Shown: positions 38,950-48,196 of the stretch, in pieces | Numbering within the stretch: position 1 is the first letter of the stretch | Layout: each line of letters starts with the position of its first letter | NCBI GenBank assembly: GCA_024228355.1 | Contig: JAAETN010000293.1 | Span: forward strand, 1 to 48,196 | Source of the DNA: Maribacter sp. | GTDB lineage: Bacteria > Bacteroidota > Bacteroidia > Flavobacteriales > Flavobacteriaceae | DNA length: 48,196 nt | Reading direction: 5' to 3' | The notes under the pieces: model-generated | What the model was told of the DNA's origin: nothing | Databases searched by the model: none | What the model saw: only the letters and a program-made list of their open reading frames with translations | Translations under genes and position numbers: made by a program

Positions 38950-40848
38950 ATGAGCGACGCGATTAAACATGAATGTGGAATTTCAGTGATACGTTTACTT
39001 AAACCGCTGGATTTTTATAAGAAGAAATACGGCACAGCATTTTATGGGGTGAACAAAATGTACCTTATGATGGAAAAGCAGCACAATCGTGGTCAGGATG
39101 GTGCGGGTTTCGCAAGTATCAAATTAGATATGAACCCTGGAGAACGTTATATGAGCAGGGTGCGCTCAGTACAGAAGCAACCCATACAGGATATTTTTGA
39201 CCAAATCAATGAACGCATCAATACCGCCTTTGTTGAACATCCGGAATATAAAGATAATGTTGCTGCCCAGAAAAAAAACATTCCTTATATAGGTGAAGTT
39301 CTTTTAGGCCATGTTCGTTATGGAACTTTCGGGAAGAACAGTATAGAAAATGTACACCCTTTTTTAAGACAAAATAATTGGATGCACCGTAACTTGATCG
39401 TTGCGGGTAACTTTAATATGACCAATGTACTAGAGCTTTTTGATAATCTAGTGCAACTAGGACAGCACCCTAAAGAAATGGCAGACACGGTCACCGTTAT
39501 GGAAAAGATCGGTCATTTTTTAGATGATGCTGTAGCTAAATTATATAAACAAATTAAAAGGGAGGGTTATAACAAATTAGAGACTTCACCTTTGATAGCT
39601 GAGCGATTGAATTTGAAGAAAATTCTAAAAAGAGCTGCAAAAAATTTTGATGGTGGTTACACAATGGCCGGAATGTTGGGCCATGGGGATGCCTTCGTGC
39701 TGAGAGATCCTTCAGGAATAAGGCCTGCATACTACTACAGTGATGATGAAATTGTAGTTGTAGCTTCAGAAAGACCGGCAATTCAAACTGTGTTCAATGT
39801 TCCTTTTAATGAAGTAAAAGAGCTAGACCCTGGAAGTGCCATTATAATAAAGAAAGATGGGAGTTCATCGTTACAGGAAGTTTTGGCCCCTAAAGAAAGG
39901 AAAGCCTGTTCTTTCGAGCGAATCTATTTTTCAAGGGGAAGTGATAAAGAAATTTATCAAGAACGCAAGGAATTGGGCAAGCTTCTTTTTCCACAAATTT
40001 TGGATGCTATTGATCACAATATCAAAAAAACCGTTTTTTCCTATATACCGAATACTGCAGAGACCTCATTCTTTGGGTTGGTAAAAGAGGTCCAGAATTA
40101 TTTGAACAAAAAGAAGGAAGAGCAAATATTAACAATAGGTTCAAAAATTACACAAGAAGAATTACACGATATATTGGCTGTTAGACCTAGAATCGAAAAG
40201 GTGGCCATAAAAGATGCCAAACTTAGGACCTTTATCACCCAAGATAGCAGTAGGGACGATTTAGTAGCCCATGTTTATGATATTTCATATGGTTCCGTTG
40301 AACTAGATGATAACCTGGTAATCATTGATGATAGTATTGTACGAGGTACAACACTAAAGAAAAGTATCCTTGGAATTTTAGATCGGCTATCACCTAAGAA
40401 AATCATTGTAGTTTCTTCAGCTCCTCAAATTAGATACCCTGATTGCTATGGAATAGATATGGCTAAATTGGAAGATTTTGTAGCCTTTAAGGCTGCTTTG
40501 GCTCTACATAAAGACCGTAATACCATGGATGAAGTTGAAAAGATCTATCAAAAATGTGTGGAACAGGTAAACTCCCATGACGCAGATGTTATCAACTATG
40601 TCAAAGATTTCTATGCACCCTTTACAGCGAATCAAATTTCAGATAAAATAGGTGAGTTGCTAAGTCCACATGATATTAAGGCCGAAGTCAAAATAATTTA
40701 CCAAACTATCGAAAGTCTTCACGAGGCCTGTCCAAAAAATTTAGGTGACTGGTATTTTACTGGAAACTACCCTACTCCAGGGGGTAATAGGGTAGTGAAT
40801 AGAGCATTTATCAACTTTTTCGAAGGAAAGAACGAAAGGGCCTATTAA
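38950..40848 (+). CDS. purF: Amidophosphoribosyltransferase (long form)
   Basis: This 632-residue enzyme starts purine synthesis by making phosphoribosylamine from PRPP and glutamine. The N-terminal class II glutamine amidotransferase has its nucleophile at Cys9 (HECGIS), implying removal of an 8-residue propeptide. The PRPP-binding loop is VIIDDSIVRGTT (457-468). Common PurF proteins have about 470-505 residues; the extra length here is spread over insertions (about 40-75 and 355-420) and a C-terminal extension (about 560-632). I know this long form from other Bacteroidetes. A 15-bp hairpin follows 9 bp after the stop codon. Confidence 0.93.
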   Translation: MSDAIKHECGISVIRLLKPLDFYKKKYGTAFYGVNKMYLMMEKQHNRGQDGAGFASIKLDMNPGERYMSRVRSVQKQPIQDIFDQINERINTAFVEHPEYKDNVAAQKKNIPYIGEVLLGHVRYGTFGKNSIENVHPFLRQNNWMHRNLIVAGNFNMTNVLELFDNLVQLGQHPKEMADTVTVMEKIGHFLDDAVAKLYKQIKREGYNKLETSPLIAERLNLKKILKRAAKNFDGGYTMAGMLGHGDAFVLRDPSGIRPAYYYSDDEIVVVASERPAIQTVFNVPFNEVKELDPGSAIIIKKDGSSSLQEVLAPKERKACSFERIYFSRGSDKEIYQERKELGKLLFPQILDAIDHNIKKTVFSYIPNTAETSFFGLVKEVQNYLNKKKEEQILTIGSKITQEELHDILAVRPRIEKVAIKDAKLRTFITQDSSRDDLVAHVYDISYGSVELDDNLVIIDDSIVRGTTLKKSILGILDRLSPKKIIVVSSAPQIRYPDCYGIDMAKLEDFVAFKAALALHKDRNTMDEVEKIYQKCVEQVNSHDADVINYVKDFYAPFTANQISDKIGELLSPHDIKAEVKIIYQTIESLHEACPKNLGDWYFTGNYPTPGGNRVVNRAFINFFEGKNERAY

Positions 40849-40856
40849 TCTACTTC

Positions 40857-40890
40857 TCGATGAATTGCACATTATTGTGCATTTCATCGA
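40857..40890. terminator. Long hairpin after purF
   Basis: TCGATGAA-T-TGCACA pairs with TGTGCA-T-TTCATCGA around the loop TTAT: 14 base pairs with one T-T mismatch. No T tract follows at once. A second, overlapping hairpin (CGATAA with TTATCG, about 40888-40909) is followed by TGTTTTT, so the two are mutually exclusive. Confidence 0.6.
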
Positions 40891-40940
40891 TAATATCCGC
40901 ATTTTATCGTGTTTTTAGCCTGTTTGGAAGCATGCCCACC

Positions 40941-40948
40941 TACATTAG
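40941..40948 (+). promoter_or_regulatory. -7 box of small-RNA copy 1
   Basis: TACATTAG, a TTAG variant of TAnnTTTG, ends exactly 5 nt before the conserved CCATAGC start of the element. TTG occurs at 40924-40926. Confidence 0.55.
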
Positions 40949-40953
40949 AGTCG

Positions 40954-41024
40954 CCATAGCATAAGTAGGTTAAGTTCATGGTAAGATTTGGGGCAAAAAA
41001 GGTGGAGACTTCTCCACCTTTTTT
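40954..41024 (+). ncRNA. Candidate small RNA, copy 1
   Basis: 71 nt. The 5' half is CCATAGCATAAGTAGG followed by TTAAGTTCATGG and TAAGATTTGGGG. The 3' half is a terminator hairpin GGTGGAG-ACTT-CTCCACC flanked by six A on the left and six T on the right. The 5' half can form a CCAT/ATGG closing stem. Copies 1-4 align without gaps up to the terminator, apart from one or two bases before the stem. Confidence 0.72.
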
Positions 41025-41197
41025 ATTTGCTGTAACCCAATTTTGGATAAAATAAATTGCTAATTAATCACGAATAATCAGTCCTATACCAACTTTCATC
41101 GGAATCCCATAATTCTTGAACTCCGATTTTCCAATTACACTTTAACCAAATATATGGGTTTTAATCTAAAACCTTTTTTCTCTTTTGATTAATACTC

Positions 41198-41205
41198 TAT
41201 GTTTG
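41198..41205 (+). promoter_or_regulatory. -7 box of small-RNA copy 2
   Basis: TATGTTTG, a full TAnnTTTG match, ends 5 nt before CCATAGC of the element. A T tract (41174-41179) occupies the -33 region. Confidence 0.65.
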
Positions 41206-41210
41206 GAGGA

Positions 41211-41280
41211 CCATAGCATAAGTAGGTTAAGTTCATGGTAAGATTTGGGGAAAAAGGTGGGGCATTGCTCCACCTTTTTT
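41211..41280 (+). ncRNA. Candidate small RNA, copy 2
   Basis: 70 nt. The 5' half is identical to copy 1. The terminator stem is GGTGGGGC-ATT-GCTCCACC (8 bp with one G-T wobble), preceded by AAAAA and followed by TTTTTT. The loop differs from copy 1 but the stem is kept. Confidence 0.75.
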
Positions 41281-41497
41281 AATATGGGGAAAATAAATTG
41301 CGAATTCAAATTCGAAAATTGAACCTGTCGCTATTTTTTTTCGGAATTCCTTTACTCTAAATGACAGCCTTCAAATATTCTTTTCAATTCCTCTTATCTC
41401 TTCTTACAACAATTGTAATACTAAACGGGACAAAGCGCATTTCAACCATAGATCAGGACGTTTATCTAAAACCTTTTTTTGAGGTGGTTGTATGGTT

Positions 41498-41505
41498 TAT
41501 TTTTG
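41498..41505 (+). promoter_or_regulatory. -7 box of small-RNA copy 3
   Basis: TATTTTTG, a full TAnnTTTG match, ends 5 nt before CCATAGC. TTG at 41479-41481 lies 16 nt upstream of the box, close to the expected -33 spacing. Confidence 0.65.
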
Positions 41506-41510
41506 GAGGA

Positions 41511-41581
41511 CCATAGCATAAGTAGGTTAAGTTCATGGTAAGATTTGGGGAAAAAAGGTAGAGCATTGCTCTACCTTTTTT
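41511..41581 (+). ncRNA. Candidate small RNA, copy 3
   Basis: 71 nt. The 5' half is identical to copies 1 and 2. The terminator stem is GGTAGAGC-ATT-GCTCTACC, perfect over 8 bp. Compared with copy 2 a G-C pair has become A-T on both sides of the stem, and the G-T wobble has become A-T, so pairing is conserved while sequence changes. Confidence 0.75.
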
Positions 41582-41701
41582 ATTTACCAATCCATGAATT
41601 TAACAAAGTAAACCTCACTTTTTGTGCTCTTAATCCATATAATCACTGCTCCAAAAACCTAAAATTTGTTAAAATTTCTTTTTTATTTCCCACAATACCA
41701 G

Positions 41702-41709
41702 TAATTTAG
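41702..41709 (+). promoter_or_regulatory. -7 box of small-RNA copy 4
   Basis: TAATTTAG, a TTAG variant of TAnnTTTG, ends 5 nt before CCATAGC, the same spacing as in the other three copies. A T run lies at 41678-41684. Confidence 0.55.
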
Positions 41710-41714
41710 TCTTG

Positions 41715-41784
41715 CCATAGCATAAGTAGGTTAAGTTTATGGTAAGATTTGGGACGAAAAGGGTGGAGGCTTCTCCGCCCTTTT
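41715..41784 (+). ncRNA. Candidate small RNA, copy 4
   Basis: 70 nt. One change in the 5' half (GTTTATGG for GTTCATGG) allows CCATA to pair with TATGG, one more base pair than in the other copies. The terminator is GGGTGGAG-GCTT-CTCCGCCC, with AAAA before and TTTT after. It is the most diverged copy and lies next to the sodA terminator. Confidence 0.72.
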
Positions 41785-41799
41785 CTATTTCAACACACA

Positions 41800-41835
41800 A
41801 AAAACCCGTTAAAGGCGAGCCTTTAACGGGTTTTT
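41800..41835. terminator. Bidirectional terminator between the small-RNA array and sodA
   Basis: AAAAACCCGTTAAAGGC pairs perfectly with GCCTTTAACGGGTTTTT around a GA centre, giving a stem of about 16 bp with A and T tracts on the two sides. It can stop transcription from both directions and lies 21 nt past the sodA stop codon. Confidence 0.9.
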
Positions 41836-41856
41836 ACATAGATACTTCTTACTTAT

Positions 41857-42465
41857 TTACTTATTCGCTATATAATTTTCTGCTACTTTATTCCAATTGA
41901 TCAAATTAAAAAATGCTTTTACATAATCCGGTCTTCTATTTTGATAGTTTAAATAATATGCATGTTCCCAAACATCGAGCCCTAGGATAGGATGTCCCCC
42001 ACACCCAACATTAGGCATTATTGAATTGTCCTGGTTTGGTGTAGAACAAACCTCTACCTTACCCCCTTTATGAACGCAAAGCCAAGCCCACCCAGAACCA
42101 AATCGAGTACCTGCGGCACCGCTGAATTTTTCCTTAAATGCATCAAATGAACCAAAAGCATCATTTATGGCATTTGCCAATTCACCTGAAGGTTCTCCTC
42201 CTCCATTTGGTGACATAACTTCCCAAAATAATGCATGGTTGTAAAAACCTCCACCGTTATTTCTGACAGCTCCGTTGTCCATATCCAAATTTGTTAAAAT
42301 ATCTTCGATGGATTTATTCTCCAAATCCGTTCCAGAAATCGCAGCATTCAGATTATTCGTATATCCATTATGATGTTTTGAATGGTGAATCTCCATGGTT
42401 CTAGCATCAATAGATGGTTCCAATGCATCATATGCATAGGGTAATTTAGGTAATTCAAAAGCCAT
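41857..42465 (-). CDS. sodA: Superoxide dismutase (Mn/Fe family)
   Basis: The ATG at 42465 is preferred to an open frame from 42501, because [17 protein letters not shown] is the standard family N-terminus. The 202-residue enzyme converts superoxide to oxygen and hydrogen peroxide. Metal ligands are seen as His27 (MEIHHSKHH), the His of FYNHALFWE, and the Asp and His of [13 protein letters not shown]. Mn versus Fe use cannot be decided by eye. No signal peptide, so cytoplasmic. A minus-strand -7 box lies at 42499-42506. Fits with the Bat operon in an oxygen-exposed organism. Confidence 0.95.
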
Positions 42466-42498
42466 AATTGTAATTTTTATGTTAGAAAAAATGTTCTT

Positions 42499-42506
42499 CA
42501 AATTTA
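42499..42506 (-). promoter_or_regulatory. -7 promoter box for sodA
   Basis: On the minus strand this reads TAAATTTG, a match to TAnnTTTG, 33 nt before the sodA start codon. The box lies upstream of the short open frame extension, which supports the ATG at 42465 as start. Confidence 0.5.
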
Positions 42507-47015: not shown

Positions 47016-48196
47016 ATGAAACATCTTAGCAAATTATTGGTTGTTGCTCTACTTGTCGTAGGTTTTAACAACATACAAGCGCAAGACGAGAATAACCCTT
47101 GGCAAGTTAGTTTTGGGGTAAATGCCATTGACGTATATCCTACAGGCGATGTAAGTTCATTTGGTAATGAATTCTTTAATGCGAATGACCACTGGAACAT
47201 TCTTCCTTCTATTTCATACGTTGCTGTATCTAAGTCAGTAGGTGATGGTTTCTCTGTTGGTGCTAGAGGTTCTTTAAACAAAATTGACAAATGGGGAGAT
47301 ACTAGGGTTGATGATCTTTCTCATTATGCCGTTGACGGTACAATCAAGTATAATTTCTTGAAAAACACAGTTATTGATCCTTTCTTGGAAATAGGTGGTG
47401 GTTACACTTGGATTGATGAAATTGGAGCTGGTACGGTTAACGGAGGTATTGGTATAAATTTCTGGTTTTCAGAAAATATGGGTCTAACCTTACAAAGCCA
47501 GTATAAGCATGCATTTGAGGATTACGGTGCTGAGCACATGCAACATTTAGCTGGTATTGCTATTAAATTTGGTGGTACTGACACCGATGGTGATGGTATA
47601 TATGACAAAGATGATGCTTGTCCAGAAGTTGCTGGTCTAGAAGCTTTCAACGGCTGTCCTGATGCTGATGGTGATGGAATCGAAGATAGTAAAGATAGCT
47701 GTCCTAATGCTGCAGGTTCTAAAGAAATGAACGGTTGTCCTGATGCTGACGGTGACGGTGTTGCCGATAAAGATGATGCATGTCCAAGCGAAGCTGGTTT
47801 ACCTGCTCTTGCTGGTTGCCCAGATGCTGACGGTGACGGTGTTGCTGATAAAGATGATGAATGTCCAAACGAAGCTGGTCCTGCCGAAAACAAAGGATGC
47901 CCATGGCCAGATAAAGATGGTGATGGTGTTCTTGACAAAGATGATCAATGTCCTGACGTTGCCGGTACTGTTGCAAACAACGGTTGCCCTGAAGTAACTG
48001 AAGAAGTTCAAAAACAATTGAACGATTATGCAAGAACTATCTTATTCGACACAGGTAAATCTTCCATCAAAGCTGAGTCTACTACAGTAATGGTTGATAT
48101 TATTCAAATCTTGAATGAATATCCAAATGCTAAGTTTACTGTTGAAGGACATACTGATAGCGTTGGTAGTGCTAAGTTAAACCAAACATTGTCTGA
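47016..48196 (+). CDS. OmpA-family outer membrane protein with thrombospondin type 3 repeats, partial
   Basis: The frame starts with ATG at 47016 and stays open to the right edge (393 codons plus 2 bases). A signal peptide (about 1-22, ending NIQAQ) is followed by a beta-barrel-type region (about 25-185). Next come five calcium-binding thrombospondin type 3 repeats (about 189-325, pattern DxDGDGxxDxxDxCP), and then the start of an OmpA peptidoglycan-binding domain ([28 protein letters not shown]) cut by the edge. Such proteins are among the most abundant outer-membrane proteins of flavobacteria, in keeping with the strong promoter. The missing part should be about 50-70 residues. Confidence 0.93.

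Follow-up and report, generated by a model that had tools for sequence, protein, structure and literature searches.

A probable array of four sibling small-RNA genes between purF and sod in a Maribacter genome, with a candidate T9SS-sorting-domain target in related species

In a Maribacter sp., a purF-like gene and a gene for superoxide dismutase (sod) that converges on it are separated by a region with four direct repeats of about 71 nt each, and the locus raises the question of whether these repeats are genes for a regulatory RNA and, if so, on which mRNA that RNA acts. The window analysed here is a stretch of 48,196 nucleotides (assembly GCA_024228355.1, contig JAAETN010000293.1), and its relevant features are collected in Table 1. 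The reading that we favour, with a probability of roughly 0.6, is that the four repeats are sibling genes, each encoding a trans-acting small RNA (sRNA) of ~71 nt, the 5' half of which pairs at the start of the mRNA of a T9SS gene and most likely represses it. A sequence-only reading of the locus had placed four copies here, each with a near-invariant 5' half and a hairpin flanked by A and T at its end, and these points were borne out: CCATAG begins at 40954, 41211, 41511 and 41715 (spacings 257, 300 and 204), positions 2-40 of the trimmed alignment are identical across the four copies except for one C/T, and every copy closes with an A/T-flanked terminator hairpin whose sequence differs from that of its siblings while the complementarity is kept. 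The fold z-scores of the four copies range from -3.6 to -4.5, and for none of them did any of 200 shuffles fold as well. The spacers, which the same reading took to be diverged, are not wholly so, since the segments 41138-41255 and 41438-41555, upstream sequence common to copies 2 and 3, are 81% alike; this likeness suggests that copies 2 and 3 were probably duplicated together with their promoter. At the far end of the window, 47522-48033 holds low-complexity overlapping minus-strand ORFs, which may be antisense to the gene of a secreted protein with repeats that continues past the window.

Table 1. Features of the array and its surroundings (positions in the window)
Feature	Position	Strand	Basis
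purF-like amidotransferase gene, usual upstream neighbour	38950..40848	+	Pfam glutamine amidotransferase domains; the name purF is our reading
-7 box TACATTAG, copy 1	40941..40948	+	read from sequence
sRNA copy 1, C-type, closest to purF	40953..41025	+	101.1 bits, model-building sequence
Terminator hairpin, copy 1	40995..41024	+	inverted repeat and fold; stem covariation across other copies
TCTAAAA box, possible activator site, copy 2	41165..41171	+	read from sequence
-7 box TATGTTTG, copy 2	41198..41205	+	read from sequence
sRNA copy 2	41210..41281	+	96.3 bits, model-building sequence
Terminator hairpin, copy 2	41251..41280	+	inverted repeat and fold
TCTAAAA box, copy 3	41465..41471	+	read from sequence
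-7 box TATTTTTG, copy 3	41498..41505	+	read from sequence
sRNA copy 3	41510..41582	+	94.5 bits, model-building sequence
Terminator hairpin, copy 3	41551..41581	+	inverted repeat and fold
-7 box TAATTTAG, copy 4	41702..41709	+	read from sequence
sRNA copy 4, U-type, closest to sod	41714..41787	+	95.2 bits, model-building sequence
Terminator hairpin, copy 4	41756..41786	+	fold and covariance-model match
17-bp perfect inverted repeat, probable sod terminator	41800..41835	.	distinct from the copy 4 terminator
Fe/Mn superoxide dismutase gene (sod), usual convergent neighbour	41857..42501	-	

Judging from these elements, transcription of each copy would start at a housekeeping-type promoter and stop at an intrinsic terminator, both belonging to that copy. 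The boxes TACATTAG, TATGTTTG, TATTTTTG and TAATTTAG all end 5 nt before CCATAG, as had been claimed. Of 340 unique upstream regions, all 340 have TAnnTT at -16 to -4, while a control window gives only 28 of 340; the longer form TAnnTT(T/A)G occurs in 279 of the 340. Among 212 profiled copies, which were picked by the exact core, the base preceding CC is A or G, so that transcription probably starts at this purine (40953, 41210, 41510 and 41714), one base earlier than the first base of CCATAG at which the sequence-only reading had put the starts. Further upstream, TCTAA is present at -52 to -36 (around -46) in 95 of the 340 regions, compared with 15, 8 and 5 of 340 in three control windows. A TCTAAAA box some 46 nt upstream of the sRNA, which is an activator-like distance, is seen at many loci.

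The structure of the RNA was assessed in an alignment (A3) of the best 150 of 221 matches, comprising 102 distinct rows fitted to the model. Seven of the 10 pairs of the terminator stem vary on both sides, and none of 500 shuffles attains the covariation score of the whole structure, in an alignment that leans towards the structure because it was fitted to the model; selection acts on pairing in the terminator stem. In the 5' stem 0 of 11 pairs vary on both sides, so that its fold is predicted from energy alone. The 5' half is conserved along its whole length and includes, in the predicted fold, a free G-rich segment; in more distant genera most of the insertions are found within the 5' loop, with CCA and ATGG kept. 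The diverged terminators would merely end the transcript, and the working part would be the invariant 5' half.

A covariance model built from the four window copies was used, together with a sequence search, to follow the element in other genomes. The source genome has four copies, all at this one locus and none elsewhere. Within the family, 204 of 249 sampled Flavobacteriaceae genomes match the model at E<=0.01. The E-value is about 1e-6 or better in 200 of these, and the four weak ones (G010, G015, G151 and G199, E 7e-4 to 5e-3) may be chance; matches number from 1 to 7 per genome, with a single match in many genomes. A class-wide sample gave matches in 16 of 395 genomes, 10 of them inside Flavobacteriaceae and the other six at 28-32 bits, approximately the chance level at that threshold. 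When 38 genomes were searched again with looser filters, the five that had been matchless were still negative. An exact 21-mer was found in at least 117 stretches of named genomes, labelled, among the matches listed, Maribacter, Zobellia, Arenibacter, Cellulophaga, Robiginitalea, Flagellimonas, Aquimarina, Kordia, Dokdonia and others; its invariance in these stretches follows from their having been selected by that 21-mer. The recognition pattern found a copy in 117 named stretches (among the matches listed) and in 33 of 35 divergent ones.

The genomic place of the element is likewise recurrent. Where more than 1200 nt of room was available, purF precedes the array in the same orientation in 80 of 86 named (among the matches listed) and 28 of 30 divergent stretches, and the median gap between the two is ~110 nt among the matches listed; where the room exceeded 1500 nt, sod follows downstream in the opposite orientation in 81 of 93 named (among the matches listed) and 19 of 23 divergent stretches. 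The exceptions to this synteny are real in part. One (L060) is a stray pattern match. Among Arenibacter stretches two (L048 and L077) have copies with sod and without purF, and three (L135, L143 and L150) have copies with purF and without sod, from which the array looks split, as if by rearrangement between copies; two copies lie far apart on one contig in G007, G014 and G134, and copies lie on separate contigs in G005, G006 and G120. The 101 stretches with at least two same-strand copies are most often laid out as CCU (32), CCCU (19), CU (16) or CC (14). The U-type copy is thus usually last, the CC layout excepted, which makes the last copy look like a positional orthologue and the middle ones like those that multiply.

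Taken together, the promoter box and terminator of each copy, the varying copy number, the usual synteny and the family-wide conservation are what would be expected of the multi-copy small-RNA family that had been proposed from the letters of the window. A possible identity with Flavo-1 (RF01705), a multi-copy flavobacterial RNA motif, did not survive. The Rfam covariance models gave 0 matches at gathering thresholds in the window; at E<=10 over 40850-41860 they returned 49 rows, all under their gathering scores, and Flavo-1 is absent from these too, which rules out membership. Directly after an sRNA copy in Arenibacter sp. 6A1 there is a Flavo-1 match (L098:4128-4206, minus strand) of 37.5 bits, under the gathering score of 42. 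Membership of FopS (RF04319) was also rejected (copy 1 reaches 19.8 bits where gathering requires 56, and the source genome has no match over the cut-off), as were STnc40, sraA and the other weak Rfam matches, all below gathering and most of them lying on the terminator hairpin. A transposon end or a degraded gene, the readings that would have spoken against an RNA, do not describe the element: a repeat or transposon end is ruled out by the lack of copies elsewhere in the source genome, the copies keep the usual place beside purF, and a short protein is contradicted by an ATG frame that is unlike among the four copies and by a 2-nt difference, GTAAGATTT against GTAGATTT, that shifts the frame between genera. 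In the titles and abstract openings of open-licence papers no description of this RNA was found.

On which mRNA such an RNA would act was approached by a pairing screen in a relative with a complete genome (G032), in which 60 stretches covering 1.2 of 3.87 Mb supplied 1006 start regions. Their duplexes have a mean energy of -17.9, which is only slightly, by about 1.9 sd, below the -17.0 (sd 0.5) of 40 shuffles. The top start region is that of a secreted-protein gene other than susC (107 aa, -34.2), and this energy is non-significant alone, 16 of 120 shuffled sRNAs being at least as strong on the same 1006 start regions. It is the conservation of the pairing across orthologues, not the screen energy, that carries the target case. 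The leader TTGATCCCAAATCAAT of the gene for this ~107-aa protein contains the complement of GAUUUGGG in the sRNA. The orthologues are the 12 best protein matches (L296-L307, 47-81% identity) in 40 relatives, the screen gene of G032 among them; 10 of the 12 come from the window's genus and one each from G001 and G011, so that they are not independent, and weaker protein matches, mostly other T9SS sorting domains, were left out. Exact TTGATCCCAAATCAAT is present in 11 of the 12. Their duplexes with the sRNA range from -28.2 to -39.5 kcal/mol (mean -34.2), compared with -14.2 to -18.7 kcal/mol (mean -16.2) for 11 neighbouring paralogues, the controls numbering 11 because the paralogue of L296 failed the length and motif rule, and 0 of 500 shuffled sRNAs attain the orthologue mean (z -8.2). 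When internal folds are allowed for, cofold binding averages -22.9 kcal/mol in the orthologues against -6.8 kcal/mol in the paralogues. Conserved antisense pairing with an mRNA encoded elsewhere in the genome was therewith found for one gene, across its 12 best protein matches and in relatives only.

The coding sequence behind the leader bears on the same point. In a set of 30 unique sequences, the 12 orthologues and 18 more found by motif, TAC is used for the tyrosines at codons 3-7 in 29 of 30, compared with 224 of 659 codons (34%) in long open frames of the same loci, and TAC is the codon that pairs better with the sRNA. A TATCTTTA-like box ends ~11 nt ahead of the CCC in the target leader, which probably puts the start of the mRNA at the block. 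Residues 37-106 of the 107-aa protein form a T9SS type A sorting domain (PF18962, TIGR04183), and its start is, in our reading, signal-peptide-like. The leader also forms an inverted repeat (TTGAT-CCCAA-ATCAA) and may have some other role.

The leader pattern TGATCCCAAATCAN{2,12}ATG occurs at 32 places in 30 of 249 genomes, the reversed pattern at four places in three genomes. Of the 32 places, 21, in 21 of the 249 genomes, belong to this same gene, whose product has 105-108 aa; a gene for a 185-aa secreted protein accounts for two, in two genera, and a gene for a 252-aa secreted protein for one, neither of the latter proteins having a family match. These 185-aa and 252-aa genes have CUACU near the start, and their cofold binding is -15.2, -15.1 and -25.8. 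The remaining eight places (L408, L411, L414, L425, L431, L432, L434 and L438), which are without a convincing secreted-protein start, were not counted; L425 and L432 have no ORF. The last of them, L438, the second place in G190 (C1, near 1248101), resembles an imperfect antisense copy of the sRNA 5' half (TCCCAAATCATGCCATGAGTGACTG..), with a duplex of -38.1 and no gene start, which suggests a decayed opposite-strand copy or a sponge-like RNA. All 21 genomes with the gene and its leader have at least three sRNA matches, as have 73 of the 249 genomes, and this link of copy number to the target is confounded by descent. Homologues L308, L310 and L311 are without such a leader. By protein and leader searches the main target has no clear orthologue in the source assembly (807 contigs), where CCCAAATC likewise precedes no convincing start of a gene; a target in the window's own organism is presumed from its relatives.

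Other routes to targets were less productive. CCCAAA-type words near the starts of secreted-protein genes are not enriched (224 against 777 genes, by crude gene calls and an equally crude signal-peptide rule of our own), and the seed complement shows no excess near the starts of 1001 genes. The loop seed AACTTAACCTACTTA, with up to two mismatches, was set aside after giving 15 and 12 matches in two genomes against 79 and 73 for the reversed control, sRNA copies included; the 18 matches outside the array take no consistent position at gene starts, and the sites common to both genomes are one within a coding region (L283, L284) and one before a lipoprotein gene (L289, L290). This last site, AAATTAACCAACTTA, is two mismatches off the complement of the sRNA loop, is kept in the two genomes, and lies ~72 nt before the lipoprotein gene, which we read as peptidyl-prolyl isomerase-like. 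The neighbouring genes were rejected as targets, their energies being unremarkable (purF -17.1, sod -18.2 and uvrD -12.0 kcal/mol). A second candidate is a secreted protein of 85 aa that has CCCAA(A/G)TC close to the start of its gene; its duplexes range from -18.1 to -32.4 in the 11 members of the window's genus, and it is not relied on because many paralogues retain AAGTC-ATG without the CCC. A source-genome member of this ~85-aa family (L381, G000:C671:3906-4055) has a CCCCAAGTC leader touching the ATG, and may be a weaker target.

The mechanism that we propose is as follows. In carrier species the clearest target would be the mRNA of the ~107-aa secreted protein, of which the T9SS type A sorting domain makes up nearly the whole. 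Within the sRNA, the segment GAUUUGGG (approximately nt 33-40) is predicted to pair with CCCAAAUC in the short target leader, while the block AAGUAGGU, together in some species with a further part of the 5' end, would pair with CUACUU-like codons right after the AUG. The AUG would thus be held between two helices and the ribosome blocked; from this clamp on both sides, translation is most likely repressed. Several copies would increase the sRNA dose.

An alternative, unlikely though deserving serious weight, is that the sibling sRNA family is genuine and has its main targets or a protein partner elsewhere, the T9SS pairing being a side branch of one clade or a coincidence. The sRNA is found in 204 of 249 genomes and the exact leader in only 30, which leaves most sRNA carriers without a known target; the source genome is without a clear one, and the entire 5' half is conserved, seemingly more than one target needs. 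Against coincidence, the pairing is kept in the 12 best protein matches at a level that no shuffled sRNA equals, and three unrelated genes have the leader in common. Far less probable is that the RNA is a titrator whose repeated copies sequester an RNA-binding protein or another sRNA, in the manner of multi-copy protein-sponging RNAs. The presence of several copies that are nearly identical, share an invariant 5' half and have a G-rich segment left free agrees with this, and a 5' stem invariant without covariation fits a protein that reads sequence; however, many genomes have a single match, the antisense complementarity to translation starts is conserved, and RRM_1, the domain of the FopS partner, was not found in the source genome (PF00076, 0 of 1 at E<=0.001, with Synechococcus elongatus and Bacteroides ihuae positive as controls), so that an RbpB-like helper is not evident. 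That the copies are repeated DNA or cis elements giving no free RNA (purF 3' end processing, attenuators or repetitive extragenic palindromes) agrees with their usual position beside purF on the same strand but is scarcely credible, given a promoter box at a fixed distance in all 340 upstream regions, the pairing selection on the terminator stem, the lack of copies elsewhere in the source genome and the copies away from purF in some genomes.

Should the sRNA repress the T9SS gene as we favour, a broader picture can be put forward tentatively, as possible rather than probable: one ancestral sRNA locus, inherited beside purF through Flavobacteriaceae, would be a dosage-tuned controller of secreted T9SS proteins, whose core link in the multi-copy clade would be the stand-alone sorting-domain protein, with its leader fixed as an sRNA landing site (CCCAA loop and codon-level clamp over the AUG), an RNA switch of surface content working without the Bacteroides RRM helper. 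Flavobacteriaceae include important degraders of algal polysaccharide, and post-transcriptional control is little charted in them. The present analysis offers a defined RNA family in about four fifths of the sampled genomes, with a usual address and a concrete candidate target, and the family would be a good candidate for a new Rfam entry. If the proposal is true, an sRNA would be linked to T9SS cargo, and antisense control would be possible without a Shine-Dalgarno sequence.

Among known systems, LhrC, the Neisseria sibling sRNAs and Qrr likewise exist as several near-identical copies with common targets; their hosts are unrelated, and the likeness drawn here is one of kind. Closer in descent are the Rfp RNAs of Flavobacterium psychrophilum, from the same bacterial family as the window, of which Rfp18 alters the mRNA levels of metalloproteases (excerpts of PMC9723704). 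As described there, Rfp18 pairs via a third stem-loop, whereas the RNA studied here is predicted to have two; the RNA may already have been recorded in F. psychrophilum, as an Rfp under another name. GibS of Bacteroides thetaiotaomicron is, in the excerpted account of PMC7366714, an intergenic sRNA that pairs near start codons without a Shine-Dalgarno sequence, and it differs in its 145 nt, its mainly single-stranded 5' part and its PM2 promoter type. Both GibS and FopS are described as acting at start codons in Bacteroidota (PMC7366714, PMC11697453, in part). FopS (RF04319), from the same species, shares with the present RNA the features of multi-copy short Bacteroidota sRNAs with a conserved 5' end and housekeeping-type promoters (excerpts of PMC11697453), the last being found here at the level of the consensus box, TAnnTT in 340 of 340. 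According to the same excerpts, FopS has 12-15 copies per genome at many loci, against four in tandem at one locus here, and its partner RbpB has an RRM-1 domain, of which the source genome has no match. FopS pairs, in that account, at the translation starts of envelope-protein mRNAs, with the SusC porin as its target (PMC11697453, in part). Pairing at a translation start is predicted for the array described here as well, with a small T9SS-sorting-domain protein in place of a SusC porin.
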